Positions 43,010 to 63,765 of a DNA stretch of 64,000 nucleotides are shown in pieces. This DNA is from Phaeocystidibacter marisrubri. Its GTDB lineage: Bacteria > Bacteroidota > Bacteroidia > Flavobacteriales > Schleiferiaceae. The translations under genes and the position numbers were made by a program. Numbering within the stretch: the first letter of the stretch is position 1; the number at the start of each line of letters is the position of its first letter. Location: contig NZ_WBVQ01000002.1 in assembly GCF_008933165.1 (NCBI RefSeq), positions 271,569-335,568 of the forward strand. The letters are read 5' to 3'. The notes under the pieces are model-generated. The model saw nothing but the letters and a program-made list of their open reading frames with translations, did no database searches and was not told the origin of the DNA.

Positions 43010-43015
43010 GATTAG

Positions 43016-43855: not shown

Positions 43856-44354
43856 TACGCTGCGCACCATAGGGCGACTCCTCTTTTTGTCGCTTTTCCA
43901 AATTCTGATATTGAATCACATTCAACTTTCGGGGTATCTCAACCCGTATCTATACGTGCTATTTGTCCTTACTCTTCCGGCGGGAATGAGTAGAACAAAC
44001 TTGCTTTTCTGGGGATTTGCCTCGGGATTGATCATCGACATCTTTGAAAACTCTGGAGGGGCACACGCCTCTGCCACACTTTTACTCGCCTATCTCCGAC
44101 CGACCATTTTGCGACTGACGTATCCGCGCGCAGATGAAGACTTGAGTAGAGTTAGCCTATGGACCATGGGTAGCTCTCGCTTCTTTACTTACGTTTCAAT
44201 TGGCATCATTGTCCATCACTTTTGGCTTTTCCTCATGGAAGCCTTCCGAATTAGTGAGGTTCTTTCCGTCTTGTCACGTACATTTATCTCTGTGCCGGTT
44301 ACCCTAGTGATGATCTACATCACGCAATTATTCGTCTATCGGGAGGAGTCATGA
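43848..44354 (+). CDS. mreD: Rod shape-determining protein MreD
   Basis: A 168-residue integral membrane protein with about five hydrophobic segments (for example LFLSLFQILILNHIQL; LYVLFVLTLPAGMSRTNLLFWGFASGLIIDIFE). Sequence is weakly conserved across bacteria, so the call rests on topology and on its position between mreC and PBP2, overlapping both (8 and 4 bases). Confidence 0.9.
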   Translation: MSDTLRTIGRLLFLSLFQILILNHIQLSGYLNPYLYVLFVLTLPAGMSRTNLLFWGFASGLIIDIFENSGGAHASATLLLAYLRPTILRLTYPRADEDLSRVSLWTMGSSRFFTYVSIGIIVHHFWLFLMEAFRISEVLSVLSRTFISVPVTLVMIYITQLFVYREES

Positions 44355-46201: not shown

Positions 46202-47466
46202 GTGCACGAGCGAGATCTGGAAGTGTCTTTACCCGAATTGACAAGTGGACGGTCTTCTTGTATGCCGCGCTGGTATTCCTAGGCTGGATTAACATCTATG
46301 CCGCGGTTTACAGCGAGGAGCACAAAAGCATCATGGATACATCGCAGCAGTATGGCAAGCAGATGATCTGGATCTTTACCAGTGGTGTTCTCATCCTAGC
46401 CATTCTACTCAGCGACGTTCGATTGTACCACAACATCAGTTATCCCGTCTACGGCGCTACCCTACTCCTTCTCGTTCTAGTACTTATCATCGGTAAGGAG
46501 ATAGGAGGAAATAAGAGTTGGATTCAACTGGGATCCTTTAGTTTACAGCCTTCTGAATTTGCCAAGTTTGGTACCGCTCTGGCGATGTCGAAGTACTTGA
46601 GCACGCTTCAAGTAGACGTTAGAGAATGGAGATATAGGTGGTGGCCCATTGTGATTATGGGGCTCCCCATGTTGCTCATTCTAGCCCAACCGGATACAGG
46701 TTCGGCCTTGGTTTTTGTATCCTTCATGCTGGTTCTTTACCGAGAAGGTTTACCGGGCATGTATCTATTTCTAGCATTCTTAAGTGCGCTGGTCGCCATC
46801 CTCTCACTGGTCTTCCCTCCTATCTATGTTATTGGCGCCATCATCGTTACTGGAGGACTGGCCTACTGGACCTTGCGCAATCAAAAGCGAATCACCCTGA
46901 CCTTAATAGGCCTCGTATTCTACTCTTCCGTTGTAGCCTATGGAACCAGTTTTATGTTCAACAACGTATTACAAACACACCAACGCGATCGTATTAGCGT
47001 CCTCTTAGGGCTCAAAGACGACCCCATGGGCGTGGGTTACCACACACAGCAATCGCTGATCGCAATTGGCTCTGGTGGTCTTTCAGGGAAGGGTTTCTTA
47101 GAAGGAACCCAAACCAAGTTGAACTACGTACCCGAACAAAGTACCGATTACATCTTCTGTACGGTAGGCGAAGAGTGGGGATTTGTAGGGAGTAGCATCA
47201 CCGTATTACTCTTCCTAGGCTTACTAGGAAGGCTCACCTTCTTAGCCGAACGACAGAAAAGCAATTTCGCACGCATTTACGGTTATAGTGTCGTTGGCAT
47301 TCTCTTCATCCACTTTGCCGTCAACATCGCTATGACACTAGGCCTAGCGCCCGTAATTGGCATTCCTCTGCCTTTCTTTAGCTACGGGGGATCTTCTTTG
47401 TGGGGCTTTACCACCTTGCTCTTCATCTTTATACGCTTGGATGCGAATAGGTGGGATGAGTTGTGA
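46198..47466 (+). CDS. rodA: RodA SEDS glycosyltransferase
   Basis: A 422-residue polytopic membrane protein that polymerises lipid II glycan during elongation. SEDS features include SWIQLGSFSLQPSEFAKFGTALAMSKYL, LAQPDTGSALVFVSFMLVLYREG, the extracellular loop GVGYHTQQSLIAIGSGGLSGKGFLEGTQTKLNYVPEQSTDYIF (read as adjoining blocks) and GIPLPFFSYGGSSL. It is the last gene of the purH-mre-mrdA-rodA operon. Confidence 0.95.
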   Translation: MSARARSGSVFTRIDKWTVFLYAALVFLGWINIYAAVYSEEHKSIMDTSQQYGKQMIWIFTSGVLILAILLSDVRLYHNISYPVYGATLLLLVLVLIIGKEIGGNKSWIQLGSFSLQPSEFAKFGTALAMSKYLSTLQVDVREWRYRWWPIVIMGLPMLLILAQPDTGSALVFVSFMLVLYREGLPGMYLFLAFLSALVAILSLVFPPIYVIGAIIVTGGLAYWTLRNQKRITLTLIGLVFYSSVVAYGTSFMFNNVLQTHQRDRISVLLGLKDDPMGVGYHTQQSLIAIGSGGLSGKGFLEGTQTKLNYVPEQSTDYIFCTVGEEWGFVGSSITVLLFLGLLGRLTFLAERQKSNFARIYGYSVVGILFIHFAVNIAMTLGLAPVIGIPLPFFSYGGSSLWGFTTLLFIFIRLDANRWDEL

Positions 47467-47635
47467 GATGATGTGATTGATGATGAGATCGCCGGGTGAC
47501 TAATGCTGGATGTCTAGTGATCCATGTCCAACGTCATGCACCGAGTTCATGTAGACGTTAGCATCCAGACTGAACAATTGCTCGGTGTCTCCATTCGAAT
47601 CCATACGAGCACTTAGTGCCTGTGCAGACCCCCAT

Positions 47636-47758
47636 CAACAAACATCCGTCTCCCAACACCAGACATCAATCCTCCATCACCAAACATCCGTCTCCCGTCA
47701 CCAGACATCGGTCACCCGTCACCAGACATCAGTCCCCCGTCACCAAACACCCGTCCAC
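47636..47758 (+). repeat. 21-bp tandem repeat array, about six units
   Basis: Units begin at 47636, 47657, 47678, 47699, 47720 and 47741 (last partial). The core is CACCAGACATCNGTC followed by a C-rich CCCGT end; units differ by one to six bases, the middle ones being most alike. A related degenerate block lies at 32389-32437 on the opposite strand. There are no unique spacers, so it is not a CRISPR. Confidence 0.9.
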
Positions 47759-47797
47759 AAAAAAACCTCCCCCATGCATTGCACAGAGGAGGTTTCT
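47757..47797 (-). terminator. Terminator of the coaX-to-PpiD envelope cluster
   Basis: Minus strand: AAACCTCC pairs with GGAGGTTT around a ~17-base loop that itself contains a TGCAATGCA-type self-complement, followed by TTTTTTG. It lies about 41 bases past the stop at 47838. Confidence 0.8.
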
Positions 47798-47837
47798 ATA
47801 ACATAGTACTCGGCACCTAATACCTACCTAGTACTTA

Positions 47838-50024
47838 TCAATAAAATCTAATTCTATTGTCTTCCATTTCCGCCTCTTTCAAGAGAGCGTTGAGAAGTTG
47901 AGCGTTCACACGGCTCTTGATAGAGCTCGTTTGTGCGTTAGCTTCGTTGTTGTAATCGCCTTTGTCTTGGAATTCCGTTGCTGCGTTTTGCTGCCAAATG
48001 TAAACTCCTTGGTTGCCTGCAACTGGACCATAGATGGTTCCGGTTTGTGATGCTGACATTTGACCCACGACAGTAGGCTCTTGTCCCGCACCGGTAATAG
48101 CACCATTACCCAAACGAATCTGCTGGATGCTCATGTTGTATTCAGAAGCATTTGCGATGGCTTGGATGTTTTCTTTGCCTTCCATGTCCGCTTTAGCACG
48201 CTCCATGATAAGATCCGCTTTAGCGCGGTTGATCACCATTGGACGAATTTGCTCACGCACGCGCTCCAACGACTTCGTTCCTTTAGGAGCAACATCGGTC
48301 AATTGAACCACTACATAAGCAGTGTTGTCGTTGTTGATGAGTTCAATATCACCTACTTCAACACCACTTTCGCCTGTCGTTTGATTCATCATAGCGCCAT
48401 ACGCCCATTTCACAACTGGACGAGCTTGACCCAAACCTGGGATGTTATCGGCGTTCTCTTTCAGTTCTGTCATTGGACGAGCTACATACCCTCGCTCTTC
48501 TGCAACAGCAGCAAAATCACCTGTACCAACAGCTGCAGCAAATTCAGCAGCGCGGTTATAGATTTCTTTCTCCGTTTCGTTCGACATTACTACGTCTCTT
48601 GTCAACGTAGCCACACGAACAGCTTTAGAAGAACCTTTTTGGTCTTGAATTTCAATGATGTGGTAACCAAACTGGCTTGAAACAAGTCCGAGATCACCCA
48701 CTTCATTTTGGAAACAGTAGTTACCGAAAGAAGGAACCATTTGATTAGGACCAAAGAATCCAAGATCACCACCTTCAGCACCTGAACCTGGATCTTCAGA
48801 CATTTCTTTCGCCACGGTAGCAAACTCGCCTCTGTTCTCTTTCACGTACGCGAAAAGACTGTCGGCAATTGACTTTGCTTCTGCAGGAGGATGACCTTCT
48901 GGATTGCGCTCAGATTGAATGCCGATCAAAATGTGACGAGCTTCCACTGAGTCTGGCAACATGCGAACTTCCTGAAGCTTGGTTACTTTGTATGCACCTG
49001 CTTCTTCGTATGGACCATAGATGAATCCTGGCTCTGCGTTGAACATGATTGAATCCATGTTACCCAACTGTCCTTCTCTCCAGAAACCACTGCGGTATGG
49101 AAGAGAACTGTTGAGCATTACGAAGGTTGAATCATCTTTTGTATCCGCAAAACCTGGGATGCTATCGGTTTTACCGGTTTGATTGTTGTAAACTCCCTTT
49201 TTGTTGATCAAGCTAATCAACTCATTTCTAGCTGCGTCTTTATCGCGCTGTGCTGGTTCCAATGGGAAGTTTACGAAAATGATATCGCGAGACTCTGTAG
49301 GCTGGCTGTACTTGAACTTGTTCTCTTCGTAGTAAGATTTGAAATCGGCCTCTGTTACCTCTACCTCATCATCAGCGATGTCGGCGTAAGGATATTGAAC
49401 AAAAGCGATATCGTGAGACACATTGCCATACATGTAGTTGTGACGAGCTAGAGCTTTTGGAGTGTATACACCCAACTCAACAGCGTCGTTAAACTTGAAG
49501 GTAAGCGCTTGCTCTTTCACGTCTTGTTCAAAGCGAACCCATCCGTTCCACTGCTCAAGAGCTTGTTCGTTTTGCGATGCTTGTGCTTCGAGGTTATCCA
49601 ACATTTGAGACATCAACATTGGATCGAACATGCCATTCTGATTTTGGAAAGCAGGCATTTGGCGAATGTTCGGGTTGTTGATCACCTCTTGACTCAATTC
49701 GGCACCTGTTACTTTGAAGCCGAGTTCGTCATACATCTCACCCATCACAACCTCACGTGCCCAATTCTGCCAAACGATGTTTGCCAAAGCACTTGAAGCT
49801 AAATTAGAATAGGCTTGATCCACTTTGCGGATCTCCTCCATTCTACTGGAGAAGTCAGTGTTATCAATCGTCTGACCGTTGATTTCACCAACGATAGATT
49901 GATTTGCACTATTTAAAGTTGCGCCGCTGCCCAAAGCATCGGTCAACACGAATGCGCCTAGCGCCACGCCGATCAAGGTAATAACAAGACCTGATCGTTT
50001 ACGAATGTTATCCAAAGTAGCCAT
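47838..50024 (-). CDS. PpiD-like periplasmic peptidyl-prolyl isomerase/foldase
   Basis: A 728-residue membrane-anchored foldase. One N-terminal TM helix (SGLVITLIGVALGAFVLTDAL) is followed by a SurA-N/PpiD-like chaperone region (IVGEINGQTIDNTDFSSRMEEI). A parvulin domain begins VEARHILIGIQ (~residues 365-460), with EDPGSGAEGGDLGFFGPNQMVPSF and SQFGYHIIEI; a second degenerate parvulin-like half and a helical C terminus follow. It is expected to help fold envelope proteins emerging from Sec. It is last in the conserved run coaX-OMP-TPR-lptC-small membrane protein-CNNM, although 169 bases separate it from the CNNM gene. Confidence 0.92.
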   Translation of the reverse strand: MATLDNIRKRSGLVITLIGVALGAFVLTDALGSGATLNSANQSIVGEINGQTIDNTDFSSRMEEIRKVDQAYSNLASSALANIVWQNWAREVVMGEMYDELGFKVTGAELSQEVINNPNIRQMPAFQNQNGMFDPMLMSQMLDNLEAQASQNEQALEQWNGWVRFEQDVKEQALTFKFNDAVELGVYTPKALARHNYMYGNVSHDIAFVQYPYADIADDEVEVTEADFKSYYEENKFKYSQPTESRDIIFVNFPLEPAQRDKDAARNELISLINKKGVYNNQTGKTDSIPGFADTKDDSTFVMLNSSLPYRSGFWREGQLGNMDSIMFNAEPGFIYGPYEEAGAYKVTKLQEVRMLPDSVEARHILIGIQSERNPEGHPPAEAKSIADSLFAYVKENRGEFATVAKEMSEDPGSGAEGGDLGFFGPNQMVPSFGNYCFQNEVGDLGLVSSQFGYHIIEIQDQKGSSKAVRVATLTRDVVMSNETEKEIYNRAAEFAAAVGTGDFAAVAEERGYVARPMTELKENADNIPGLGQARPVVKWAYGAMMNQTTGESGVEVGDIELINNDNTAYVVVQLTDVAPKGTKSLERVREQIRPMVINRAKADLIMERAKADMEGKENIQAIANASEYNMSIQQIRLGNGAITGAGQEPTVVGQMSASQTGTIYGPVAGNQGVYIWQQNAATEFQDKGDYNNEANAQTSSIKSRVNAQLLNALLKEAEMEDNRIRFY

Positions 50025-50193
50025 GTACTCGAAGGAAGTTTTAGTTCAAGGTTGCGAATATACAAGTACAAGTGGAATAATGGGAGTATCGAGGGTAGAA
50101 TTTCGCCGGAATAATGATGTTATGTGCGCTGGTACTGAGGACGCGACGTCCATCGCACGGGCCACAGGTTCCAACCGAGCTGTAGACTTTCTA

Positions 50194-51438
50194 CTATCTC
50201 ACCAAAACCCGCACTTCCTCCAAGCGGTTGGAGCTGACATCGTGAACCTCCAAAATGTAATCATCTAGCGCTACTCGTTCGCCTTTCTCTGGGATGGATT
50301 CCAGCATATCGGTAACCAATCCACCTAGCGTGGTATAATTGTCACTTTCGGGGAGTGAAAAACGATACTCGTCATTGAGGTAATCGATTTCCAAACGAGC
50401 GGAAAATATGTATTCATTCGGACCTACCTGACGCTCCAGAAGCTCATCGGTATCGTGTTCATCATCAATATCTCCAAAGATTTCTTCAACGACATCTTCC
50501 AGCGTGATTAGACCAGCAGTGCCGCCAAACTCGTCGAGGACAATGGCCATATTGCGCTTATCGCGGGTAAAGAGGTTCAGGACATCATTAGCCGTCATCG
50601 TTTCTGGAATGAAACTAACGGGGCGGAGAATAGAGCGGATATTTTCAGGCTTTTTGAAAAGCTCGTAAGCATGAACGTACCCGATAATATTGTCGATGTT
50701 CTCGTTGTAAACGATGATTTTGGAATACCCAGTTTCAATAAATCTTCGGTGGAGTTCAGAAATGCCCTCTGCCTTTTCAGCAGCGAGAATCTCCGTGCGA
50801 GGAATCATGAATTCACGGGCTTTGATATCACTAAAATCCAAGGCATTTCGGAAAATCTCGATCTCGTGATCCACCTCTTCATCGTCGTTGTTGGTGTTCT
50901 CTTCGATGTAATGATCGATATCCACCTTCGAAAAAACGGGCTGATCAGAATCGAGGTTGGTTTTGAAAACCACGCGAAGGAGATACTTCGAGATAGACGT
51001 TATCCCTGAAACGATGGGATAGGTCAGCAAGTAGAATACCACCACTGGAATCGAAAAGGCTTTAAGGCCTTCGTTCGATCGAGCGCTAAAGAGCGCTTTT
51101 GGTAAGTATTCAGCCAAAAAGAGCACTACAACCGTAGAAATGATGGTCTGCAAAAGGAGTACGAGATACTCTGAGTCAGTCCACTGGAAATACGGACTGA
51201 GAATATCAGGTAGATAAAGACCAAAGAGGACAATGGCCACGTTGTTCCCCACCAACATTGTAGAGATAAAGCGCGTTGGGTGCTTTACCAAATACGATAT
51301 AATGATATTCGGAAGTCGGCGTTTCTTACTTTCCAGCTCAATCTGCAAGCGGTTGGCCGATAAAAATGCGATCTCCATTCCCGAAAAAAATGCGGAAGCG
51401 AGGAGCGCGAGAAGAATGACTATATAAGGCTCAGCCAT
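50194..51438 (-). CDS. CNNM/CorC-type membrane protein with CBS pair (hemolysin family)
   Basis: A 414-residue protein. The DUF21/CNNM membrane domain (residues 1-150) starts with a hydrophobic segment containing FFSGMEIAFLSANRL. A CBS pair follows (MIPRTEILAAEKAEGISELHRRF and FIPETMTANDVLNLFTRDKRNMAIVLDEFGGTAGLITLEDVVEEIFGDI). The C-terminal CorC_HlyC domain begins YIFSARLEIDYLNDEY. Relatives move or sense Mg2+; GldE of gliding bacteria belongs to the same superfamily, but the gld neighbours are absent here, so a plain CNNM assignment is safer. Confidence 0.9.
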   Translation of the reverse strand: MAEPYIVILLALLASAFFSGMEIAFLSANRLQIELESKKRRLPNIIISYLVKHPTRFISTMLVGNNVAIVLFGLYLPDILSPYFQWTDSEYLVLLLQTIISTVVVLFLAEYLPKALFSARSNEGLKAFSIPVVVFYLLTYPIVSGITSISKYLLRVVFKTNLDSDQPVFSKVDIDHYIEENTNNDDEEVDHEIEIFRNALDFSDIKAREFMIPRTEILAAEKAEGISELHRRFIETGYSKIIVYNENIDNIIGYVHAYELFKKPENIRSILRPVSFIPETMTANDVLNLFTRDKRNMAIVLDEFGGTAGLITLEDVVEEIFGDIDDEHDTDELLERQVGPNEYIFSARLEIDYLNDEYRFSLPESDNYTTLGGLVTDMLESIPEKGERVALDDYILEVHDVSSNRLEEVRVLVR

Positions 51439-51445
51439 ATAGGGA

Positions 51446-51640
51446 TTAGAGTTTTCTACGCTTCATACCCGTAGTTACGTACCTGAAGCCAGCGTACAAT
51501 CCCAAAAGTAACAAAATCAATCCTCTCGTGGTATCGCCACCCGAGAATGCTACATAGCATTCCACTACCATAACGGCAGCGGCAATCATCCAAAGGAACT
51601 CAAAGGTCCTCAGTAGTCGTTTCTGTCGAGTCTGATTCAT
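51446..51640 (-). CDS. Small two-helix membrane protein
   Basis: A 64-residue protein with basic ends (MNQTRQKRLLRTFEF; GMKRRKL) and two hydrophobic segments (LWMIAAAVMVVECYVAF and LILLLLGLYAGFRYV). Its start overlaps the 3' end of lptC by 41 bases and it ends 7 bases before the CNNM gene, so it is embedded in the operon. I do not recognise a named family; the position suggests a part in envelope assembly. Confidence 0.75.
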   Translation of the reverse strand: MNQTRQKRLLRTFEFLWMIAAAVMVVECYVAFSGGDTTRGLILLLLGLYAGFRYVTTGMKRRKL

Positions 51641-52199
51641 TTAAAAATATCGTTCCGAATACTTCGTGTATCTCGTATTCATTCATGTTTTCATCGGCCT
51701 CAAACCCCTTCCCCCATATCTTCGAATCGGGTGTTGTAATCGTCACTTGTTGATCAGACGAAATACGGTGGGTTTTCATATTCCAATATAACTTTTCCGT
51801 AGCAAGGGATTCCCCTTTTACGCTGTGTACTTGAACATCGCCTTCCGCTTCCCAACGCTGCTCATCAATAAATTGAATGGCAGAATTTGCGCGCAAGGTC
51901 GTTTCCACAGTTCCTGAGTCGGAAAAGAAGGTGACATCTACTCCATCTGGAAACTTCAGATAGGCATCTTCCTCGAGATGCGAATAATCCAGTGCGAGAG
52001 GTGCAACAAAATTCAATTTAACAATTCCACTATCCGTGTAGGTATAATCAACCTCCTTCTGAACGCGAAGCGGGCCATCGTATTCACTCACGGTTTCACG
52101 AACCTGTTTTTGATCATTCACACAAGCGGTGATAAACAAAAAGAGAGGGACAGCCAAAGCTATCCCCCTCATCCTATGATATGTCCGTGTGGAATTCAT
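51600..52199 (-). CDS. lptC: LptC-like LPS export protein, lipoprotein-type
   Basis: A 199-residue protein. The leader ends LFLFITAC, a lipobox, so it is probably a lipoprotein rather than TM-anchored like E. coli LptC. The body is a beta-rich LptC/OstA fold: VEFxxP-like FPDGVDVTFFSDSGTVETTLRANSAIQFIDEQRWEAEGDVQVHSVKGESLATEKLYWN (read as adjoining segments), with TTPDSKIWGKGFEADENMNEYEI. It would bridge LPS between LptB2FG and LptA. It is 3 bases downstream of the TPR gene. Confidence 0.9.
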   Translation of the reverse strand: MNSTRTYHRMRGIALAVPLFLFITACVNDQKQVRETVSEYDGPLRVQKEVDYTYTDSGIVKLNFVAPLALDYSHLEEDAYLKFPDGVDVTFFSDSGTVETTLRANSAIQFIDEQRWEAEGDVQVHSVKGESLATEKLYWNMKTHRISSDQQVTITTPDSKIWGKGFEADENMNEYEIHEVFGTIFLNESDSTETTTEDL

Positions 52200-52202
52200 C
52201 TC

Positions 52203-53639
52203 TTAGTTATAGAACTCGAAAGTAACGGTTTCGTTAATCCAACATCCTATAGTGTATTTCGTTCCTTCCGTTTTGCCAAGGTCGAATGCGACACGCTTGG
52301 TAGGTACACCTTTCTTGTAAGATGCAATGGCGCGGTTTGCCGCACTTCTCAAGCTAGGATCAAGGCTCACTGCAATGTTGGCCTTATCGATAGCAGCCCA
52401 GTAAACGGCGTTCTTCTCAACGGCATCAGAACCACAAACCCCAGCTGCACTAGCGTAGATTACTGAAAGTTGTAGGTAAGCCTGTCCTGTCTTATTCAAC
52501 GCAATTGACTGCATGATGCTAGACTTGGCATCTGCCAATCTGCCGAGTTGTTGCTGACAGTAAGCGTACTTCAACAAGTCGTCTGCTTTCAGAACTGGAT
52601 CCAACTCTTGGTTCATTGCTTCACCGAAGTACTGGAGTGCCTTGCTGTAATCCTTGCGAGCCAATGCTAGACGTCCCATGTTGCGAGCCGCTTCTGTAGA
52701 AGGATTCATTTGGTAAAGACGCTCAGTCATTTCAAAGAACAATGGGTTATCGCGACAAGATGCCACTTCACCACTATCATTTGTGTATTCTGCACCTAGG
52801 GTACGAACCGCACGGCGAATCCAAGTTTCGTTGTCCTTGTTCTCCGCGTAGCTTTCAGCGTTGTACACCAAAGCGATTTTGTCGCAAGAAGAAAGAATCG
52901 GACGAAGTTTGATATCGATGTTGCTCTTAACCGCTATGAAGTTGCGAAGGCTAAGTGAATCGCTTTGAAGGATACGAGCCCCTCTGGCGTCAAGCATACC
53001 TGAATCTCTCTTAGTTCTGAGTTCAGCAAGCTCAACGTTCAAATCATCCGTGTTGGCTGCAACCGCCTCATCAATTTGGTTGTAGATATCGAACACTTCA
53101 GAAAGCTCAAGAGCGTCTTCGTTAAACAATTTCACGGCTACGAAGAAGTAGCTCTGAATTTGAGTAGCTGACATCTCTTTTGGATCGATGGAAATCGCCT
53201 TCTCATACATTTGGTAGATCTCGTTCATAGAGCTATCCAAACGGTATTGATACAAAACGTATGCTTTAGCAGCAGTAACGTATGCCTCTTTACCTGGGAA
53301 GTACTTCATACGAGTATCGTATTGTGCAAGAAGTTGGTCAACGAGTGCATTCTTTGCAGCTTCATCACCTGCTTCTTCAACCTCCTTGAGCTTATACTTG
53401 ATAATGTTTGGCCCCATGATGTACAGGTTCTTGTGGTAACCTGGACAAGTGGTATAAACGATATCCCAAGATTCATACGCCTGAGCGTATTGTTTTGAAT
53501 TAAATAGAGAACCAGCAATGTTGTAGTTCTCAAAGCAACGGATGCTATCTGCATCATTTGCTCCGTAAGGGTTATCTTGACCGTAAACTGCTTGAGTCAT
53601 CAGACCCAAGGCTAAAATTGACAGTATCCGTTTCATCAT
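52203..53639 (-). CDS. Exported TPR protein
   Basis: A 478-residue protein. Tandem ATGs at 53637-53639 and 53634-53636 begin signal peptide KRILSILALGLMTQAVYGQ. TPR-like helix pairs follow (NYNIAGSLFNSKQYAQAYESWDIVY; AYVTAAKAYVLYQYRL; AARNMGRLALARKDYSKALQYFGEAMNQ; KYAYCQQQLGRLADAKSSIMQSIALN). The conserved C-terminal part includes ASAAGVCGSDAVEKNAVYWAAIDKANIAVSLDP. It is always neighboured in this phylum by the outer-membrane barrel and LptC genes, as I recall, so an envelope or LPS-related scaffold role is plausible but unproven. Confidence 0.85.
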   Translation of the reverse strand: MMKRILSILALGLMTQAVYGQDNPYGANDADSIRCFENYNIAGSLFNSKQYAQAYESWDIVYTTCPGYHKNLYIMGPNIIKYKLKEVEEAGDEAAKNALVDQLLAQYDTRMKYFPGKEAYVTAAKAYVLYQYRLDSSMNEIYQMYEKAISIDPKEMSATQIQSYFFVAVKLFNEDALELSEVFDIYNQIDEAVAANTDDLNVELAELRTKRDSGMLDARGARILQSDSLSLRNFIAVKSNIDIKLRPILSSCDKIALVYNAESYAENKDNETWIRRAVRTLGAEYTNDSGEVASCRDNPLFFEMTERLYQMNPSTEAARNMGRLALARKDYSKALQYFGEAMNQELDPVLKADDLLKYAYCQQQLGRLADAKSSIMQSIALNKTGQAYLQLSVIYASAAGVCGSDAVEKNAVYWAAIDKANIAVSLDPSLRSAANRAIASYKKGVPTKRVAFDLGKTEGTKYTIGCWINETVTFEFYN

Positions 53640-53646
53640 TTTGAAA

Positions 53647-54981
53647 TTAGCGGTACTTGAATTGAGTAAACCATTTATCATTCAACGTAAGTCCAACAAC
53701 GAACCTAGTATATGTTTCACTAATGTTGCCGGACGCCTCTGTGCCTCTACGTCCAACAATCATTCCAATATTTAATGTAGCCAGCTTTACATCGCCTGGC
53801 GCCTGTGTTCTTCTACCGATTGGAAGCCCCAATCCGATGGTTCCACCAAAGTCGTTAATCGCCTCACCTCCAACTACTAACCCTGTGTTCTCATAGAACG
53901 CTCCGAGTCGATAATCGATCTGAGAAAAATAATTTCCTCGGTTCATGTCAAACGTGTAATACGGAATCATTTGACCACCGATATTGGCACGGAACCCTTG
54001 CTGATACTCTCCTCGAATTTCTGTTGAGGCGGTAAGTTCATCTCTATTCATCAACTTATACCCTGCGCCAAAACTCCAAGCGTGCTGTACCAACTGTTCG
54101 TGACGGCCGCCAAAAGTAAACCCAAATGAGTAATTGGAGTTAAAGACAACGTTAACATTTTTGGCCTGCGTAGAATAAACGGTATCGTTGTAGAAACGAG
54201 TACCCGAAGCGTTTTGTGTAAAGGTGTATTGCAGATCATTCACTTCACCACTCATAGTGGTTTTTGGAGTGAACGTCGCTCCCAGAATCAAATCTCTATC
54301 GCCGCTAAAGTTCATTTGGTATTGCACGCCCGCATCCCAGCTAAAGCCTGAAGCCAAAATGTTCTCTTCGCGAGTAATGTGATAGAAATTGGTATTGTCA
54401 AACAAAACGGTCGTCAATCTTTCACTAGATCCAAAGTAGTAGCTACCGTTAGCACCAACAGATAAACCCTTATAAAGTTCCCAACCCAATCCAAAATAAG
54501 CTCTATCGAAACCACCTTCGCCCGAATATTGAACGTTGGCATCGCTAAAAGGAGTAGATGTACGGGCCTCAATATCGTACCCCACTTTGCTGTAAGGCAA
54601 GAGACCAATCGACATACCCAACTTCTCTCCGAGAGGAAATCCCAGACTTAGGTAATTAAAACCACCGCTATTGGTTTGAACTTGTTGAGCCCCATCGTTC
54701 AGGAACGTCTCTTGGTAGAAACCTCCTATTTCGATGGTGGTGTACAGCAAGGAAGAATACGAAGCAGGTTGAGAAATATTGATTTGGAGTGGATCTCGGA
54801 GTCCCGTGGAAATCCCGCCCATGCCCAATTGGTTGGCCAATTTTCCAGATTCGCGTTCACCGTTCCCAAAAATGGAATAGGGAGATACCGTCTGACCGGT
54901 AGCCGAAGCCGCGAAGAGAATCAATACAGAGAGGCCGAATAAACGGCGAAAGTCACTGCGCATGTTGTAAAAGGATCGCAT
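53647..54981 (-). CDS. Outer-membrane beta-barrel protein (FadL/OMPP1-like)
   Basis: A 444-residue protein with signal peptide FGLSVLILFAASATGQ; the ATG six codons in (54961-54963) is an alternative start. The mature protein begins VSPYSIFGNGERESGKLANQLGMGGISTGLRDPLQINISQPASYSSL, as in FadL-like channels. It continues as alternating amphipathic strands rich in Gly and Tyr/Phe, ending in an aromatic/basic strand (RFVVGLTLNDKWFTQFKYR). The substrate is unknown. Its start overlaps the end of coaX, and the TPR gene follows 7 bases later. Confidence 0.85.
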   Translation of the reverse strand: MRSFYNMRSDFRRLFGLSVLILFAASATGQTVSPYSIFGNGERESGKLANQLGMGGISTGLRDPLQINISQPASYSSLLYTTIEIGGFYQETFLNDGAQQVQTNSGGFNYLSLGFPLGEKLGMSIGLLPYSKVGYDIEARTSTPFSDANVQYSGEGGFDRAYFGLGWELYKGLSVGANGSYYFGSSERLTTVLFDNTNFYHITREENILASGFSWDAGVQYQMNFSGDRDLILGATFTPKTTMSGEVNDLQYTFTQNASGTRFYNDTVYSTQAKNVNVVFNSNYSFGFTFGGRHEQLVQHAWSFGAGYKLMNRDELTASTEIRGEYQQGFRANIGGQMIPYYTFDMNRGNYFSQIDYRLGAFYENTGLVVGGEAINDFGGTIGLGLPIGRRTQAPGDVKLATLNIGMIVGRRGTEASGNISETYTRFVVGLTLNDKWFTQFKYR

Positions 54982-55678
54982 TCAGTCCGTGTAGCGTATA
55001 ATTTTGACGTGCAAAGGTGGCTTTTTTTGCTTGAAGGTCAAAGGCCTCTGCATCTCCGCCCGTCAGTATTACATGAAGGTTGCTATAACGGGCTTCATAC
55101 TGACGTATTGTTTCCGTCAATTCATTCTTCATTCCATTATACGCTCCAGACTGCAAAGAAGTGAGGGTGTCAACTCCAATTAGATCTGTGGGAAGTGCCT
55201 CTACATGCGGTAAACTCGCGGTAAACTCGTGCATAGCACTCAATCTCATTTTCCATCCAGGGGCAATGCTTCCACCTTCGTGCACCCCTTCTGAATTTAG
55301 AATATCATAGGTAATGCAGGTCCCCATATCAATCACCAAAACATTTTTTTGAGGGAACTCAAAATAAGCGGCTTCCATATTTAGGATGCGATCTAACCCG
55401 AGGGTGTGCGGAGTTGCATACACAGAAGAGTGCGCCAATGTTGTTTGATGTGTAAACGGAGTCGCCTTCAAATCCTCAAAAAGGAGTCGTCCCGCCTCCG
55501 AAACCTCCCCTGAAGCCATCCATAGAATAGACGTTGGAGAGACATTTTGCAGGTAATCTGACAAAATTTTCACGACATCCGGACGATTATTTTCGATGTA
55601 GTCCACGCGCCGAAGTCGCTGACCCTCAAAAAGTCCGATCTTCACACGGGTATTTCCCCAATCCAAAGTGGCATTCAT
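54953..55678 (-). CDS. coaX: Type III pantothenate kinase
   Basis: A 241-residue kinase of the ASKHA fold for the first step of coenzyme A synthesis. ATG 55676-55678 gives MNATLDWGNTRVKIGLFEG, with the phosphate-binding DxGNTxxK motif; the open frame upstream runs into the tRNA promoter. TLGLDRILNMEAAYFEF, the second motif VIDMGTCITYDI and GGSIAPGWKMRLSAMHEFTASLP are diagnostic. It is first of the envelope cluster running leftwards. Confidence 0.95.
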   Translation of the reverse strand: MNATLDWGNTRVKIGLFEGQRLRRVDYIENNRPDVVKILSDYLQNVSPTSILWMASGEVSEAGRLLFEDLKATPFTHQTTLAHSSVYATPHTLGLDRILNMEAAYFEFPQKNVLVIDMGTCITYDILNSEGVHEGGSIAPGWKMRLSAMHEFTASLPHVEALPTDLIGVDTLTSLQSGAYNGMKNELTETIRQYEARYSNLHVILTGGDAEAFDLQAKKATFARQNYTLHGLNAILLQHAQ

Positions 55679-55703
55679 TCCGTAAAGGTAAGCACCAAAA
55701 ACT

Positions 55704-55734
55704 ATTGCAGAATAAAAATTATGGCTTACATTTG
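55704..55734 (+). promoter_or_regulatory. Predicted promoter of tRNA-Phe
   Basis: TTG at 55705-55707 and TACATTTG at 55727-55734 with a 19-base spacer. The -7 octamer is identical to that of the rpsL promoter. The predicted start is near 55741, about 38 bases before the tRNA. Confidence 0.6.
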
Positions 55735-55778
55735 CCGCCGCAACAGGGAAAAACGTTTCCCCTAGCAAATCTTCTACC

Positions 55779-55851
55779 GGTGCTGTAGCTCAGTTGGTAG
55801 AGCAAAGGATTGAAAATCCTTGTGTCGGCGGTTCGATTCCGTCCAGCACCA
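55779..55851 (+). tRNA. tRNA-Phe (anticodon GAA)
   Basis: A 73-base cloverleaf without encoded CCA. The acceptor stem is GGTGCTG/CAGCACC with discriminator A; the D arm contains AGCTCAGTTGGTAGAGC; the anticodon stem AAGGA/TCCTT encloses loop TTGAAAA; and the T arm contains GGTTCGATTCC. It stands at the boundary between the core envelope cluster and the restriction-modification island, a common integration site. Confidence 0.97.
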
Positions 55852-55862
55852 CAGCAGAAACG

Positions 55863-56444: not shown

Positions 56445-56487
56445 CACCCCATCTCAACTTTAAAACACTTTATATCTCAATTTTCAA

Positions 56488-56502
56488 GATATCCAGGATA
56501 TT
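56488..56502. promoter_or_regulatory. Candidate operator for the XRE controller protein
   Basis: GATATCC-A-GGATATT is a near-perfect inverted repeat with 7-base half-sites and a 1-base centre, ending 30 bases before the start codon of the XRE gene. Size and position fit an autoregulatory site of a Cro/C1-type or R-M controller protein. Binding is inferred. Confidence 0.45.
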
Positions 56503-56532: not shown

Positions 56533-56724
56533 ATGAACAGGATAAAAGAGATACTAGAAGAGAAGGGAATTAAGCAGACGTGGTTAGCTGAAAAGCTTGG
56601 AAAAAGCTACAACATGGTTAACGGCTATGTACAAAATAGACAGCAGCCACGACTCCAAATACTTTTCGAGATTGCCGAAATACTAGAAGTTAAACCGCAA
56701 GACTTACTAAAAGATAAAGAATGA
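56533..56724 (+). CDS. XRE-family helix-turn-helix regulator, probable controller of the R-M operon
   Basis: A 63-residue single-domain Cro/C1-type protein: [39 protein letters not shown], with the HTH at residues ~14-35, then [23 protein letters not shown]. Its stop overlaps the hsdM start (ATGA), so it is co-translated with the methylase subunit. By position and size it resembles C proteins that time expression of restriction after modification. It may act at the palindrome at 56488-56502. Confidence 0.88.
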
Positions 56725-58268
56725 CTAGCATAGCACAAAGACAGGAACTGCAAAATAAAATATGGAAAATCGCTAATGAAGTACGCGGTTCTGTTGATGG
56801 ATGGGACTTTAAACAGTTCGTTCTTGGGACGCTTTTCTATCGTTTCATAAGTGAAAATTTCACCAATTATATTGAAGGTGGAGATGAGAGTGTGAACTAT
56901 CCGAGTCTATCAGATGATGTAATCACACCTGAAATTAAAGACGATGCGATAAAGACCAAAGGTTACTTCATCTATCCAAGTCAACTCTTTGTCAACATTG
57001 CCAAAACTGCCAACACAAACCCTAATCTAAACACAGACTTAAAAGCCATTTTCGATTCCATTGAAAGTTCAGCAAATGGCTATCCGTCTGAGCAAGACAT
57101 TAAAGGGCTGTTTGCAGATTTCGACACAACAAGCACACGACTTGGCAATACGGTCGAAAACAAAAACAGCAGACTAGCTGCAGTTATTAAAGGTGTTGCT
57201 GAATTGAGTTTCGGAAATTTTGAAGACAACCAAATTGACCTTTTTGGTGATGCGTACGAATTCCTAATCTCCAACTATGCCGCCAACGCAGGAAAATCTG
57301 GTGGTGAGTTTTTCACGCCTCAGCACGTTTCCAAACTCATTGCTCAATTGGCAATGCATGGACAGTCAACAGTAAACAAGATTTATGACCCTGCAGCAGG
57401 CTCTGGTTCATTGCTTTTACAAGCTAAAAAACACTTCGACAATCACATCATAGAGCAAGGATTCTTCGGTCAAGAAGTAAATCACACCACCTACAATTTG
57501 GCACGTATGAACATGTTCTTGCACAACATCAATTACGATAAGTTTCACATTGTATTAGGCGACACACTTAGAGAACCACATTTAGGTGATGAAAAGCCTT
57601 TTGATGCTATTGTGTCAAATCCGCCTTATTCTGTAAAATGGGTTGGTGATGACGACCCAACCATGATCAATGATGACCGTTTTGCTCCTGCGGGTGTGCT
57701 TGCTCCAAAATCAAAAGCCGATTTTGCTTTTGTATTGCATGCTTTGAGTTATTTGTCAAGTAAAGGACGGGCAGCCATTGTGTGCTTTCCTGGCATCTTT
57801 TACCGAGGCGGTTCTGAACAAAAGATTCGAAAATATCTAGTGGATAATAACTATGTAGAAACCGTCATTTCTTTGGCTCCAAATCTTTTCTTTGGAACGA
57901 CAATAGCGGTCAACCTGTTAGTGCTCTCCAAGCATAAATCAGAGACAAAAACTCAATTTATTGATGCTAGCGGTGAGGATTTCTTTAAGAAAGTAACCAA
58001 TAACAATGTGATGACCGATAAGCACATTGCAAAGGTTATGGAACTCTTCGCTAACAAATTGGAAGTGGCCCATGTATCAATTTCCGTCGAGAATTCCAAG
58101 ATTTCGGAAAATGATTACAATCTTTCAGTAACCTCCTATGTAGAAGCGAAGGACAATCGAGAACCGATAAACATTTCTGAATTGAACGAGAAAGTTTCAA
58201 AAATTGTAGAGAACATCGATAAGCTACGTGCTGACATTAATGCCATTATTACAGAGATTGAAGGATGA
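56721..58268 (+). CDS. hsdM: Type I restriction-modification DNA methyltransferase subunit HsdM
   Basis: A 515-residue N6-adenine methyltransferase subunit. The N-terminal helical domain ([36 protein letters not shown]) is followed by the SAM-binding motif [12 protein letters not shown] (from D223) and catalytic motif IV NPPYS (from N300). The [20 protein letters not shown] block is typical of the family. Length and sequence suggest the type IC group (EcoR124I HsdM is about 520 residues). It overlaps the XRE gene upstream and hsdS downstream by 4 bases each. Confidence 0.97.
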
Positions 58269-59461
58269 GTTTTTTAAATAAACTACTAGAGGGCAAAGAA
58301 TTAGAGTGGTCAACTCTAGGCGATGAAAAGTACGTTATCATTGAAAACTCAGGTAGAAAACCAGTAAAGGCTTCGTTACGAGTACCGGGGGATACTCCTT
58401 ATTATGGAGCAAATAACATACAAGACTATGTGGATGGTTTCACCCATGAAGGCACCTATGTGTTGGTAGCCGAAGATGGATCTGCAAGTCTTGAAAATTA
58501 CTCAGTGCAATGGGCAATGGGTAAATTTTGGGCAAATAACCATGTTCATGTGTTGCGTGGAAGAACTAAGCTAGAGAATAGGTTCTTATTCCATTATTTA
58601 CGAATCGTGAATTATATTCCTTTCTTGTCGGGCGGCGGGAGAGCCAAATTGACTAAAGGTAGGCTGATGGAAATTCCAATACCTATTCCTGCACCTGCAG
58701 TTCAGGAAGAAATTGTGCGAATATTAGACTCTTTTACGGAGCTTGCAACGGAGCTTGCAACGGAGCTTGCAACGGAGCTTGTAGCACGAAATAAACAATA
58801 TAATTTCTACCGTGAGCTATTGTTCAATTTTCATGGGAGAGATATACCACATCTACCATTGGGACATGAGGATGTAGGTGAATTTCAAAGAGGTAAGCGT
58901 TTCGTAAAAACTGACATAATTTCAGCAGGCGTACCATGCATTCATTACGGTGAAATTTACACTCACTATGGTGTTTGGGCCAATGAAACGAAATCCTTCG
59001 TTAGCAGGGATTTAGTTGAGAAGAAAAACCTAAGAATTGCCGAAAAGAGAGATGTTGTAATCGTTGCAGCTGGTGAAACTATTGAAGATATCGGACAAGG
59101 AACTGCCTGGTTAGGTGATCAAGGCGTAGTTATACATGATGCTTGTTTCTCTTATAGAAGTAAATTAAATCCAAAGTACGTTGCATACTTCACACGCACA
59201 AGGCAGTTTCATGATCAAATAAGACAACATATTCGAACAGGTAAAATTTCTGCTATCAATTCAAAAGGGCTAGGCAAAGCAGTGATTCCTATCCCGTCCC
59301 CCAAAGAGCAAGAGAGCATAGTCTCTATCCTCGACAAATTTGACATGCTTACCAATTCTATCAGTGAAGGACTCCCAAAAGAGATTGAGTTAAGACAAAA
59401 ACAATATGAATATTACAGTGAAATGTTGTTAACCTTTCCCGAGGAAAATTTAGAAGCGTAA
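58265..59461 (+). CDS. hsdS: Type I restriction-modification specificity subunit HsdS
   Basis: A 398-residue subunit with two target recognition domains (residues ~15-150 and ~195-370). They are separated by a central conserved region ([17 protein letters not shown] then [14 protein letters not shown]) and followed by a matching distal one ([17 protein letters not shown] then [14 protein letters not shown]). The central region carries four tandem TELA units (residues 158-173) coded by a perfect 12-bp repeat. In EcoR124-type enzymes the number of TAEL-like units sets the spacing between half-sites of the DNA target. The target sequence itself cannot be read from the protein. The next gene starts 1 base after its stop. 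Confidence 0.95.
58736..58783 (+). repeat. 12-bp tandem repeat (four units) in hsdS
   Basis: Units ACGGAGCTTGCA start at 58736, 58748 and 58760 and are identical; the fourth, at 58772, differs in one base (GTA for GCA). They are in frame and encode Thr-Glu-Leu-Ala. Gain or loss of a unit would keep the frame and change the distance between the two recognition domains. Confidence 0.95.
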
Positions 59462-59462
59462 C

Positions 59463-60671
59463 ATGAGTAAGACTTTAACAGAAATTGCAACAACACTGAG
59501 AGATGCCAATAAAAAATTACAAGTAATTTATGCATTCAATGGATCTGGCAAGACTCGATTATCCAAGGAATTCAAAGAACTGATAGCACCTAAAGAAATT
59601 GAAACTGAGCCAGAAGAGGAGCCGAAACCTAAAGTGCTATATTACAACGCTTTCACAGAGGACTTGTTTTATTGGGATAATGATTTAGAGAACGACACTG
59701 ACAGAAAATTACAAATCCACCCCAATAAATACACTAAATGGATACTCATTGATCAAGGACAAGAACCCAATATTGCGAGGCACTTTCAACGCTATACCAA
59801 CGATAAATTGACTCCAACCTTTAATGAAGAATTTTCTGAGATTCGATTCTCATTTGAAACTGGAGATAATTCGATTCCGATTTTCAATGAGGATTCTCAA
59901 GAAATTCCTTCATCAACTGAGGAGGGCACAGAAGCTAAACCAGGAAATGTCAAGATTTCAAAGGGAGAAGAAAGTTGCTTTATCTGGAGCGTGTTTTACA
60001 GCCTCCTAGCTCAAACAGTCAATATTTTAAATGTAGCAGACGAAGCTGATCGAGAAACAGACCAATTCAATGATTTACAATACGTATTCATTGATGACCC
60101 TGTAAGTTCATTAGACGATACCCACTTAATTGAATTAGCTGTTGATATTGCTGATTTGATAAAATCGAGCACATCTGAATTGAAGTTCATTGTAACAACC
60201 CACAACCCACTATTTTACAATGTATTATTTAATGAATTCAGCAGAGAGAAAGGAACTAGAAAATGGCGGTTAGAAAAATATATAGACAGTACTTTTGATC
60301 TGATAGACCAACCTAAAGACTCACCTTTCTCGTATCATCTCACATTGCTAAAGGAACTTGAAAACGTGGCAGATTCTGGAGAAATTCAGAAATACCATTT
60401 TAATTTTTTAAGAAACGTATTAGAGAAGACCTCGACTTTCTTAGGATACAATAATTGGGAAGAGCTATTACCAGAAGATGGACGTCAATCCTATTACAAA
60501 CGCATCATCAACCTGTCGAGTCACTCTAAACACCACGGAGATGAAGTCTCGATACTCGAAGAGGACAATAAACGTATGCTAGGATTCTTAGTTAAAGAGG
60601 TAATAATCAAAATCTATCACTTTCACTCAACAGTAGTGAAAGTTGAAAATCAAGAAAATGCCACAGTATAA
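59463..60671 (+). CDS. prrC: PrrC-family anticodon nuclease (ABC-type NTPase plus tRNase domain)
   Basis: A 402-residue protein between hsdS and hsdR, the place of prrC in the E. coli prr locus (PrrC is 396 residues). The N-terminal ABC-type NTPase has Walker A AFNGSGKT (24-31), signature ISKGEES (165-171), Walker [11 protein letters not shown] (209-218) and switch His in TTHNP (H247). [18 protein letters not shown] (~58-75) matches a characteristic PrrC segment. The C-terminal domain keeps the catalytic triad pattern R317-x3-E321 ... H354, against R320, E324, H356 in Prr[10 protein letters not shown] (285-293) lines up with the PrrC tRNA-Lys anticodon-recognition segment, including its Asp. 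It is expected to be silenced by the R-M complex and to cleave a tRNA, probably tRNA-Lys, when a phage inhibits restriction. Confidence 0.9.
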
Positions 60672-63600
60672 GACTATAGCGGAATCAAATAACTTCATAG
60701 TACTTGAAAAGTATACGAAGTACTCAGATCTTCATGAGGCTCCGGTTATTTATCAGACAGAATCCGCGCTTGAGACTGAGTTTATCCAAGATTTGATTGA
60801 CCAAGGTTACATATACTCAAAAGAGATAAACACAAAGGAAGCTATGCTGGCTAATGTCCGAATCCAACTTCAGACATTGAACAGCATGGAGTTTAAAGAT
60901 AGTGAGTGGGCTCGCTTCGTTCAGGAGTATTTAGACAAGCCAGGAGATGGTATAATAGATAAGACCAGAAAAATTCACGACAACTATATCTATGACTTTG
61001 TATTTGATGATGGACATATCCAAAACATTTATCTGGTAGACAAGAATAATGTCCTGCGAAACAAACTACAAGTCATCTCACAATTTGAGCAGAAAGGAAC
61101 ACATTCCAATCGTTACGATGTAACCATTTTGGTCAATGGCATACCTCTAGTGCAGGTAGAACTTAAGAAGCGTGGAGTCGCTATTCGCGAGGCTTTTAAC
61201 CAAGTGCATCGCTATAGCAAGGAAAGCTTTAATAGTGACAATTCATTGTTCAAGTACTTGCAGGTTTTCGTTATATCAAATGGGACAGACAGCCGCTACT
61301 TCGCAAATACGGTAAGACGTGATAAGAACAGCTATGACTTCACCATGAACTGGGCGAAGGCTGATAATTCATTAATTAAGGATTTGAAGGATTTCACGGC
61401 TACATTCTTTGAGAAGGGTACCCTCCTTAAGGTATTGCTTACATATTCTGTATTTGACACAAGTGATACCCTCCTCATTATGAGGCCATATCAGATTGCA
61501 GCTACAGAACGGATTTTGTGGAAGATTAAGAGTTCATTCCATGCTAAAAAATGGTCAACCAATGAAAGCGGCGGTTTCATATGGCATACTACAGGATCAG
61601 GAAAAACCCTTACGAGCTTTAAAGCAGCGAGACTTGCAACCGAACTTGACTTCATAGATAAAGTTTTCTTTGTGGTTGATCGTAAGGACTTGGACTTTCA
61701 GACTATGAAAGAATACCAACGATTCTCTCCTGAAAGTGTAAATGGCTCTGAAAGTACAGCAGGTTTAAAGCGGAACATTGAACAAGATGATAACAAGATT
61801 ATCGTCACTACCATTCAGAAGCTGAACAACCTCATGAAAAATGAAGACGCATTACCTGTTTACCAGAAACAAGTGGTCTTTATTTTTGATGAAGCGCACC
61901 GCTCTCAATTCGGTGAAGCACAAAAGAACCTCAATAAAAAATTCAAAAAATTCTTTCAATTCGGATTCACTGGAACACCAATTTTTCCAGAGAATGCATT
62001 AGGAGCTGAAACCACGGCAAGTGTTTTTGGGAGAGAGTTACATTCTTATGTTATTACAGATGCCATTAGGGATGAAAAGGTTCTAAAATTCAAGGTAGAT
62101 TACAATGATGTTCGCCCCAAGTTTAAGAGCATTGAAACAGAAATAGATGAGAAAAAGCTAAGTGCCGCAGAGAATAAAAGCGCCCTGCTACACCCAATTC
62201 GCATCAAAGAGATTTCGCAGTACGTACTTCAAAACTTCAAACAAAAGACACATAGAACCAAAGGCGGAAACAGTGGCTTTAACGCAATGTTTGCGGTAAG
62301 TAGTGTTGACGCTGCAAAATGCTATTATGAAGAGCTCAATAAGCTTCAGGAGGAAAGCGAAAAGCCACTGAAGATAGCCACCATCTTTTCTTTTGCAGCA
62401 AACGAAGAACAAAATGCAATTGGAGAAATTGCCGACGAAACCTTTGAACCATCAGCTTTGGATCAAAGTGCAAAAGAGTTTTTGACCAATGCCATCTCTG
62501 ACTACAATTCGATGTTCAAAACCAGCTATGGCGTTGAAAGCAGAGAGTTCCAGAACTACTACAGAGACCTAGCAAAACGAGTTAAAAACAAAGAGATTGA
62601 CTTAATCATTGTAGTCGGCATGTTCCTTACTGGTTTTGATGCGCCAACTCTTAACACGTTGTTCGTCGACAAGAATCTCCGTTATCACGGTTTAATGCAA
62701 GCGTTCTCTCGAACCAATAGAATCTACGACGCTACTAAAACCTTCGGAAACATTATTACCTTTCGCGATTTAGAAAAAGCTACGGTTGATGCTATAACAC
62801 TTTTCGGAGATAAGAACACCAAAGATGTAGTTTTAGAAAAAAGCTTCAGGGAATATCTTGAAGGCTTCACAGATATTAATTCCGGTGATGCTCGAAGAGG
62901 CCTTATTGATGTAGTTAATGATCTCAATAAAAAATTCCCAAATCCTGATGAAATAGTCACGGAAAAGGACAAAAAAGAATTCGCCAAAATCTTTGGTGAA
63001 TATTTAAGAGTTGAGAACATTCTCCAAAACTATGATGAGTTCACCCACTTAAAAGCAATTCAAACTCTCGACGCTAGTGACCCAGATGCCGTCGAAGCTT
63101 TTAAGGATACGCATTTTATAAGCGATGAGAACATTGCGGCTTATCGCGATATTGATTTACCAACTGAGCGTAGAGTTCAAGATTATCGATCAACTTACAA
63201 TGACATTCGTGACTGGCTGAGAAAAGAACGCCGTGGCAAGGAAGCTGAGGAGTCAACCATTGATTGGGATGATGTGATCTTTGAGGTCGACCTGCTTAAG
63301 TCCCAAGAGATAAACCTCGATTATATCCTTGAACTCATCTTTGAACACAACAAGAAAACGAAGGACAAGGCTTCATTAATCGAAGAGATCAGAAGAGTTA
63401 TTCGTTCAAGTATAGGAAACAGAGCCAAGGAAAGCTTAATTGTAGATTTCATCAATGACACCGAACTTGATGAAATACAAGATAAAGCAAGTGTGATTGA
63501 TTCTTTCTTCTCCTATGCTCAACGCAAACAGAAAACTGAAGCAACGGAGCTCATCACCGAAGAAAATTTGAATGTAGAAGCGGCTAAGCGATACATTTCA

Positions 63601-63765
63601 GCTTCTTTAAGACGAGAATACGCAAGTGTGAATGGAACTGAACTCAATGCACTTTTACCAAAAATGAGTCCTTTGAATCCTCAGTACTTGACAAAAAAGC
63701 AAAGTGTATTTCAAAAGATATCTTCATTTGTGGACAAATTTAAAGGAGTGGGAGGGCAATTATAG
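60658..63765 (+). CDS. hsdR: Type I restriction endonuclease/translocase subunit HsdR
   Basis: A 1035-residue motor subunit (EcoR124I HsdR is about 1038). The N-terminal PD-(D/E)xK nuclease has D154, E168 and K170 ([21 protein letters not shown]), the same spacing as EcoR124I D151/E165/K167. The SF2 translocase follows: Walker A TTGSGKT (311-317), [38 protein letters not shown] and [10 protein letters not shown]. The C-terminal helical domain is complete. The ATG at 60658 overlaps the end of prrC by 14 bases; a start 5 codons upstream is less like the family. All catalytic motifs appear intact, so the system should be functional. Confidence 0.96.

Follow-up and report, generated by a model that had tools for sequence, protein, structure and literature searches.

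A prr-type restriction operon with a PrrC anticodon nuclease gene in the flavobacterium Phaeocystidibacter marisrubri

In Escherichia coli the anticodon nuclease PrrC is encoded in a restriction-modification (R-M) locus of type IC with the gene order hsdM-hsdS-prrC-hsdR (PMC3014915), and its mechanism has been described (PMC3014915, PMC2610378). A more distant member of the family, PrrC170 of Klebsiella quasipneumoniae, was described with HsdR first and 35% identity to EcoPrrC (PMC11555353). DefenseFinder is cited as having found PrrC in 705 of 22,803 RefSeq genomes (PMC11201134). In E. coli itself prrC is uncommon, as a distant blastn search with a Klebsiella prrC matched 21 of 5,426 genomes. 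Here, we analysed a stretch of 64,000 nucleotides of Phaeocystidibacter marisrubri (the window), where positions 56533-63765 of the forward strand hold five intact open reading frames (ORFs) that overlap or touch, i.e. a helix-turn-helix (HTH) regulator, hsdM, hsdS, prrC and hsdR, as read from the ORF list and translations. We think it likely that these genes form a complete type IC R-M operon like prr of E. coli, PrrC anticodon nuclease included, and that they are best explained by the mechanism published for PrrC. HsdM2S would then methylate the host sites, and with HsdR added unmodified DNA would be cut. By analogy with E. coli, PrrC would be kept silent inside the type IC Hsd complex and released when a phage blocks the DNA cutter by anti-restriction, leading to tRNA cleavage. 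What we say on the silent state, on its release, on cleavage and on the tRNA target is carried over from the family.

The PrrC protein and its restriction partners

The product of the gene between hsdS and hsdR matches the PADLOC PrrC profile over residues 3-399 with an E value of 1.6e-137, hence not by chance; a search of the NCBIfam profiles gave no match for it. BLASTP aligns it at 51% identity over 390 columns with the 396-residue 'anticodon nuclease' of E. coli strain B1 (locus L035), our E. coli reference, which is not the original PrrC record but has Arg320, Glu324 and His356 at the published numbers. The alignment passes beyond the NTPase and through the C domain as far as residue 363. 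The original prediction had named the lack of such an alignment as its refutation, and this refutation did not occur. The triad R317/E321/H354 thus aligns with R320/E324/H356 of E. coli PrrC (numbers counted from the alignment), as had been proposed, and the Walker A, ABC signature and Walker B motifs, H247, R317-x3-E321 and H354 all stand in the translation at the residues that had been named (Table 1). H247, like the triad, is kept in all of the 107 PrrC proteins that we compared. The protein has the motifs of an ABC nucleoside triphosphatase (NTPase) and no coiled-coil insert, and in 78 PrrCs the Rx4-6H motif of HEPN domains is satisfied (Rx6H in 77, Rx5H in one). Published PrrCs have 341-416 residues (PMC2610378), a range that includes the 402 of the window protein, and their N domain carries a 15-residue 'PrrC box' (PMC3014915). 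Residues Y60-D74 form a 15-residue stretch conserved in the alignment of relatives. This stretch is the likely candidate for the PrrC box. By its sequence, the window protein is a classical PrrC.

The 107 proteins include that of the window and 80 from scanned loci. Another 18 were obtained by surveying 296 genomes of the host's phylum, and the last eight, with one identical pair among them, belong to E. coli and to named plasmids. The scanned loci are the best 80, relative to the window protein, of at least 573 relatives among at least 592 pattern matches in genome contigs, which biases the sample in favour of proteins like that of the window. These 80 loci come from Bacteroidota (35), Pseudomonadota (26), Bacillota (6), Verrucomicrobiota (3), Chloroflexota (3), Thermodesulfobacteriota (2) and three others with one each, two being unplaced. 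We scored the gene order, disregarding inserted genes, in 88 loci: the window, seven named ones and the 80 scanned (L032 was omitted since it has the same protein as L038). The E. coli order hsdM-hsdS-prrC-hsdR, recognised in the window from ORFs and profiles as originally predicted, occurs in 80 of them. The other eight lack hsdM (7) or both hsdM and hsdS (1), all at contig ends, and none has a different order. In 50 loci, exactly 1 nt separates hsdS from prrC. Two prr operons carry an inserted gene between hsdM and hsdS (L041:4817-5824 and L099:4731-5807), the first of which we take to be RhuM-like and the second to encode a second, unrelated nuclease-like protein.

One might argue that an RloC-type or other ABC-HEPN protein lies beside R-M genes by chance, since PF13166 is common to other AAA_13 proteins. 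But 402 residues are too few for the coiled-coil and zinc hook of RloC, which has 658-897 residues (PMC2610378), the PrrC profile spans nearly the whole protein, and the operon is conserved across phyla. Size, profile and synteny thus refute an RloC-type identity, and we find such an alternative hardly credible.

Structure predictions agree with this assignment to different degrees. An AlphaFold2 model built from 78 PrrCs has a mean predicted local distance difference test score (pLDDT) of 81.8 and a predicted template modelling score of 0.66. Its residues 1-284 match Rad50 heads (4ncj_C, Z 13.0, root-mean-square deviation (rmsd) 3.9, 212 aligned). The C domain alone (residues 283-402, pLDDT 82.3) is modelled as a helical bundle, and the top five rows of VIA-align are all HEPN toxins: 7ae8_C (Z 8.0), 7bxo_G (7.1), 7ae6_B (6.9), 8xdj_C (6.6) and 8yuf_B (6.5). 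The best of these has an rmsd of 3.7 over 102 aligned residues; Z values of this size are not decisive for helical bundles. Membership of PrrC in HEPN is published (PMC3710099). We regard the predicted HEPN fold as supportive and not as proof, because Foldseek, used on its own, returned neither a significant match nor any HEPN chain. A search by sequence for a solved PrrC structure found no chain up to E 1, and a further search found only Rad50 5da9 (E 0.0076).

The partners of PrrC tell a similar story. The window HsdM is 78% identical to that of the E. coli locus L035 over 515 residues, and HsdR 74% over 1037 columns; HsdS is 29% identical. Enzymes from separate type I families resemble each other much less than this. 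We therefore assign the window system, as its partner sequences indicate, to type IC, in line with the original prediction. The match of HsdR to PF12008 (EcoR124_C) is not taken as proof, since HsdRs of the divergent systems described below match it too. The TELA repeats of HsdS sit between its two recognition domains and resemble the TAEL repeats of type IC enzymes, which determine how long the spacer of EcoR124I and EcoR124II is (PMC3874165). Among 99 HsdS ORFs scored, which include a duplicate of the window's (L001) and some fragments, 76 have two to four whole copies of the four-residue repeat unit, 22 have none and one is unreadable. As in EcoR124I/II, the spacing of the DNA target may switch with the number of repeats.

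Given the identity of PrrC, the triad, the ABC NTPase, the prr gene order and the type IC partner, a two-tier anti-phage defence as in E. coli, which the original prediction had proposed, would be the best inference. The locus is an intact example of an already known defence family: it is ordinary, and no new kind of system.

Table 1. Features of the operon and of the preceding tRNA gene, in window positions; counts refer to the 107 PrrC proteins.
Feature	Position	Strand	Evidence or remark
tRNA-Phe(GAA)	55779..55852	+	operon lies in the stretch behind it
HTH regulator gene, Cro/C1-type, 63 aa	56533..56724	+	PF01381 E 5.6e-11
hsdM, type I DNA methyltransferase subunit, 515 aa	56721..58268	+	TIGR00497 E 4.1e-195, above cut-off
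hsdS, type I specificity subunit, 398 aa	58265..59461	+	PF01420 E 7.9e-40, two stretches; PADLOC Specificity_I E 5.6e-104
12-bp tandem array ACGGAGCTTGCA in hsdS	58736..58781	+	3.8 copies, 100% match; encodes TELA repeats
prrC, ABC NTPase + HEPN-type anticodon nuclease (predicted), 402 aa	59463..60671	+	PADLOC PrrC PDLC02360 E 1.6e-137; PF13166 E 8.6e-18
Walker A, AFNGSGKT, residues 24-31	59532..59555	+	N26 and K30 kept in 107/107
ABC signature, ISKGEES, residues 165-171	59955..59975	+	S166 in 107/107, G168 in 105/107
Walker B and D loop, residues 209-218	60087..60116	+	D211 and D212 in 107/107
Segment equivalent to tRNA-Lys recognition peptide, PKDSPFSY, residues 284-291	60312..60335	+	D286 = Asp287
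Catalytic R317 and E321 (R317-x3-E321)	60411..60425	+	align with R320/E324; kept in 107/107
HEPN motif R347-x6-H354, H354 = catalytic H356	60501..60524	+	H354 in 107/107
hsdR, type I restriction subunit, 1035 aa	60658..63765	+	TIGR00348 E 9.2e-202; PF12008 E 5.3e-73

Recognition segment, tRNA substrate and trigger

Residues 284-294 of E. coli PrrC bind the anticodon stem-loop of tRNA-Lys, with Asp287 as the presumed contact of the modified wobble base (PMC3014915). The equivalent segment of the window protein aligns as PKDS--PFSY with YGDSNKSFSY of E. coli. The gap is thus of two residues, and not of one as had been noted for KDSPFSYHL. Among the 107 PrrCs 82 have this short segment, 12 the long segment of E. 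coli type and 13 another pattern. These counts favour the short form because of the way the sample was drawn: in the phylum survey five of the six classical PrrCs are long and only that of the window is short, so that the short form is common among the relatives compared, which is no measure of its global frequency. The equivalent of Asp287 is an aspartate in 98 of the 107 proteins, the nine exceptions being L011-L019.

The long form makes up one clade with support of 100 in both of our trees. In the first tree, within a set of 43 rows (31 short, 12 long), it was nested inside the short form with support of 97. With the segment columns omitted, a tree keeping the 82 short rows together was not rejected (p-AU 0.801, approximately unbiased test) and was even likelier. 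Hence, we dropped a derivation of the long E. coli form from within the short one, and only the single clade of long forms stands. An origin of the long form by insertion of two residues would be the simpler reading, since the 13 outgroup rows lack these residues as well. The E. coli recognition peptide, the basis of work on tRNA specificity, accordingly belongs to one clade, with 12 of the 107 proteins compared.

Does the shorter segment imply another substrate? The original prediction had suggested so, and one may imagine a protein of the same architecture and silencing with a different or broader tRNA target. The gap itself speaks for this, as does a published caution that PrrCs, being variable in their recognition sequence, may differ in substrate (PMC3014915). 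Yet, the short form is that of most proteins in our sample, drawn as it is towards the window protein, D286 is kept, and the tRNA-Lys of this genome resembles that of E. coli. The genome has 38 tRNA matches, and among the 30 typed there is one tRNA-Lys, with anticodon TTT (tRNA-Lys(UUU)). E. coli lysT has the same loop, CTTTTAA, and the same discriminator base, A73. Built of four A-T pairs and one G-C, the anticodon stem of the host tRNA is weak, in agreement with the reported inhibition of PrrC by a stable stem (PMC3014915). Besides, PrrC170, at 35% identity to EcoPrrC, is reported to cut tRNA-Lys (PMC11555353), and if it belongs to the divergent branch, as we argue below, it would bracket the window protein. 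The suggestion of another target is thus weakened, and we think it quite unlikely.

Several points nevertheless weigh against a prr-type operon that works as in E. coli. The recognition segment does differ from that of E. coli by two residues, and among short-form PrrCs we came across none whose substrate has been published. The typing of tRNAs covers 30 of the 38 matches. Foldseek with the C domain alone returned 19 rows up to E 10, none of them HEPN and none at E 0.001. Finally, a tblastn search with the phage peptide Stp, run with a limit of E 1, matched 772 of 50,697 phage records, and no Bacteroidota host is among the ten commonest first words of the organism names listed with a match (11 more words exist). 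This last observation would suit a PrrC released chiefly by host signals, i.e. the dTTP pool, unmodified DNA or restriction alleviation after DNA damage, instead of by a phage anti-restriction peptide, and dTTP, DNA and GTP have published roles in activation (PMC3014915; PMC12707154). But a diverged peptide of 26 residues would escape tblastn, and the interface hit by Stp-like inhibitors is probably kept, given the identity of HsdM (78%) and HsdR (74%) to the E. coli partners. Release mainly by host signals therefore seems to us unlikely, and we keep release by phage anti-restriction as the more probable case.

One might further speculate that short-form PrrCs read the anticodon loop unlike E. 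coli PrrC and that, in this host, an anti-restriction protein not related to Stp fires the enzyme. We consider this pair of claims improbable. If both were true, the family could not be modelled on the E. coli prototype, whose two extra residues are confined to a single clade; the prototype would then be the exception. The substrate of a short-form PrrC would show if the specificity for tRNA-Lys reaches other classical PrrCs.

Some observations on phages stand apart from this question. No PrrC was found among the 50,697 phage records at E 1e-5. Eight records (H124-H131), from Escherichia and Salmonella phages of 38-50 kb, have weak matches of 18-19 residues to the N-terminal part of Stp, and one of these is annotated as a putative activator of host endonuclease. 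They are possible Stp relatives outside phages of the size of T4.

A divergent branch, the operon and its genomic site

The phylum survey gave 19 matches of PrrC strength (E < 1e-80, own genome counted) in the 296 genomes, 13 of which are only 30-35% identical to E. coli PrrC. The branch that separates these 13 rows from the 94 classical ones has support of 99 in the first tree and 97 in the tree without the segment columns; the first tree has them in two groups, of 4 and 9. Nine of the 13 lack the equivalent of Asp287. The gene order is hsdR-hsdS-prrC-hsdM in all seven contexts fetched out of the 13, with hsdS confirmed by PF01420 in each. Loci of this branch are L151-L157, from seven genomes of the host's phylum, L158:1-9235 and L159:2015-9211. 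The same order is found in a plasmid of Synechococcus and in one of K. quasipneumoniae, where two extra genes lie between hsdR and hsdS and PrrC is 32% identical to that of L035. K. quasipneumoniae also carries a classical PrrC (L038). PrrC170 likely belongs to this branch, since it comes from the same species, has HsdR first and shows 35% identity. In the one locus compared (L151), HsdM and HsdR are 36% and 33% identical to those of the window. A firm label of 'not type IC' would go too far for the divergent systems, as this comparison covers a single locus whose HsdR matches EcoR124_C; divergent HsdRs match it in both cases tested. PrrC has been called invariably linked to type IC (PMC2610378), a statement that would have to be widened if the divergent system is truly of another type. 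The position of prrC directly behind hsdS is common to both gene orders.

Within the window, the four genes hsdM-hsdS-prrC-hsdR are present as originally predicted for 56533-63765, but position 56533 is the start of the HTH gene, which had not been named, and hsdM begins at 56721. The junctions are a 4-nt overlap (ATGA) between the HTH gene and hsdM, another of 4 nt between hsdM and hsdS, a 1-nt gap between hsdS and prrC, and a 14-nt overlap between prrC and hsdR, which suggests that translation of the operon genes is coupled. We place the start of hsdR at ATG 60658; an alternative TTG upstream, at 60643, would give 1040 residues. Of the 70 loci, window counted, whose upstream sequence spans 600 bases or more, nine have a similar HTH gene at most 300 bases before hsdM, and all seven of these nine with a placed organism are Bacteroidota. 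The regulator probably tunes the expression of the operon, and may delay or limit that of a toxin-bearing unit. Promoter- and terminator-like sites before the HTH gene were in no excess over shuffles, in a scan that does not cover Bacteroidota promoters; an imperfect palindrome with arms at 56479-56502 is a lead only. Behind hsdR, directly after the end of the window (L149:669-15429), lie genes for a DUF6615 protein, a GIY-YIG protein that PADLOC assigns to PDC-S14 (E 2.3e-87), a DUF429 protein and a PD-(D/E)XK protein matching PDC-S26 (E 4.6e-36), with a patatin match below the cut-off, and these make a candidate defence cluster.

The operon has probably been imported, as suggested by its G+C content of 35.9-39.7% against 46.2% in 40,000-55,770. 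Among 88 genomes of the host's family (own counted), only that of the host has a classical PrrC of the window type, and the two genus mates in this search have no PrrC. Two family genomes (G317 and G319) have a divergent PrrC, with 57-63% identity to a divergent reference and 32-33% to the E. coli one, hsdS before it and hsdM after it. A single genome and a foreign composition might also point to a decayed or silent copy. But the five ORFs are all open and every catalytic and NTPase residue checked is kept, so that decay looks very unlikely, and an intact operon remains our reading.

The stretch behind tRNA-Phe, where the operon lies, is a variable site, since one genus mate (L182) keeps the genes before tRNA-Phe and has unrelated DNA behind it, beginning with a gene of 338 codons whose product we read as TIR/SEFIR-like. 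The contig of the second genus mate ends at this site. A role of tRNA-Phe as integration site is not supported: no second same-strand copy of at least 12 nt of the 3' end of the tRNA occurs in the joined 30,432 bases. On a broader scale, the identities of HsdM, HsdR and PrrC to those of E. coli (78%, 74% and 51%) point to a type IC cassette that travels between phyla in one piece, with prrC in it.

Comparison with described systems

The HEPN toxins 7ae8 and 7bxo are the nearest to the predicted C domain (Z 8.0 and 7.1) and share the Rx6H motif but, unlike PrrC, have no ABC domain. They are stand-alone toxins with a nucleotidyltransferase antitoxin. RloC has in common with the window protein an ABC NTPase and an Arg-Glu-His nuclease domain, but it is about twice as long, has a coiled-coil with zinc hook and is rarely linked to R-M (PMC2610378). 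PrrC170 is likewise a PrrC that accompanies a type I R-M system; tRNA-Lys is its reported target, and it is said to stop the phages T1 and T7 (PMC11555353). Its identity to EcoPrrC and its HsdR-first arrangement put it probably in the branch with prrC between hsdS and hsdM. Those publications that a search listed as naming both PrrC and Flavobacterium do not, judged by title, concern the prrC of the window.

The E. coli prr locus, i.e. the EcoprrI type IC system with PrrC, remains the closest. It differs by its recognition segment, which in the window is two residues shorter, by the HTH gene that the window has coupled before hsdM, and by HsdS, whose 29% identity means that the DNA target is probably different. 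In the other respects compared, the two loci are alike: gene order, HsdM and HsdR (78% and 74%), PrrC (51%), catalytic triad, NTPase motifs, Asp287 and HsdS repeats of TAEL type. The window thus adds an intact prr locus in a Bacteroidota genome.

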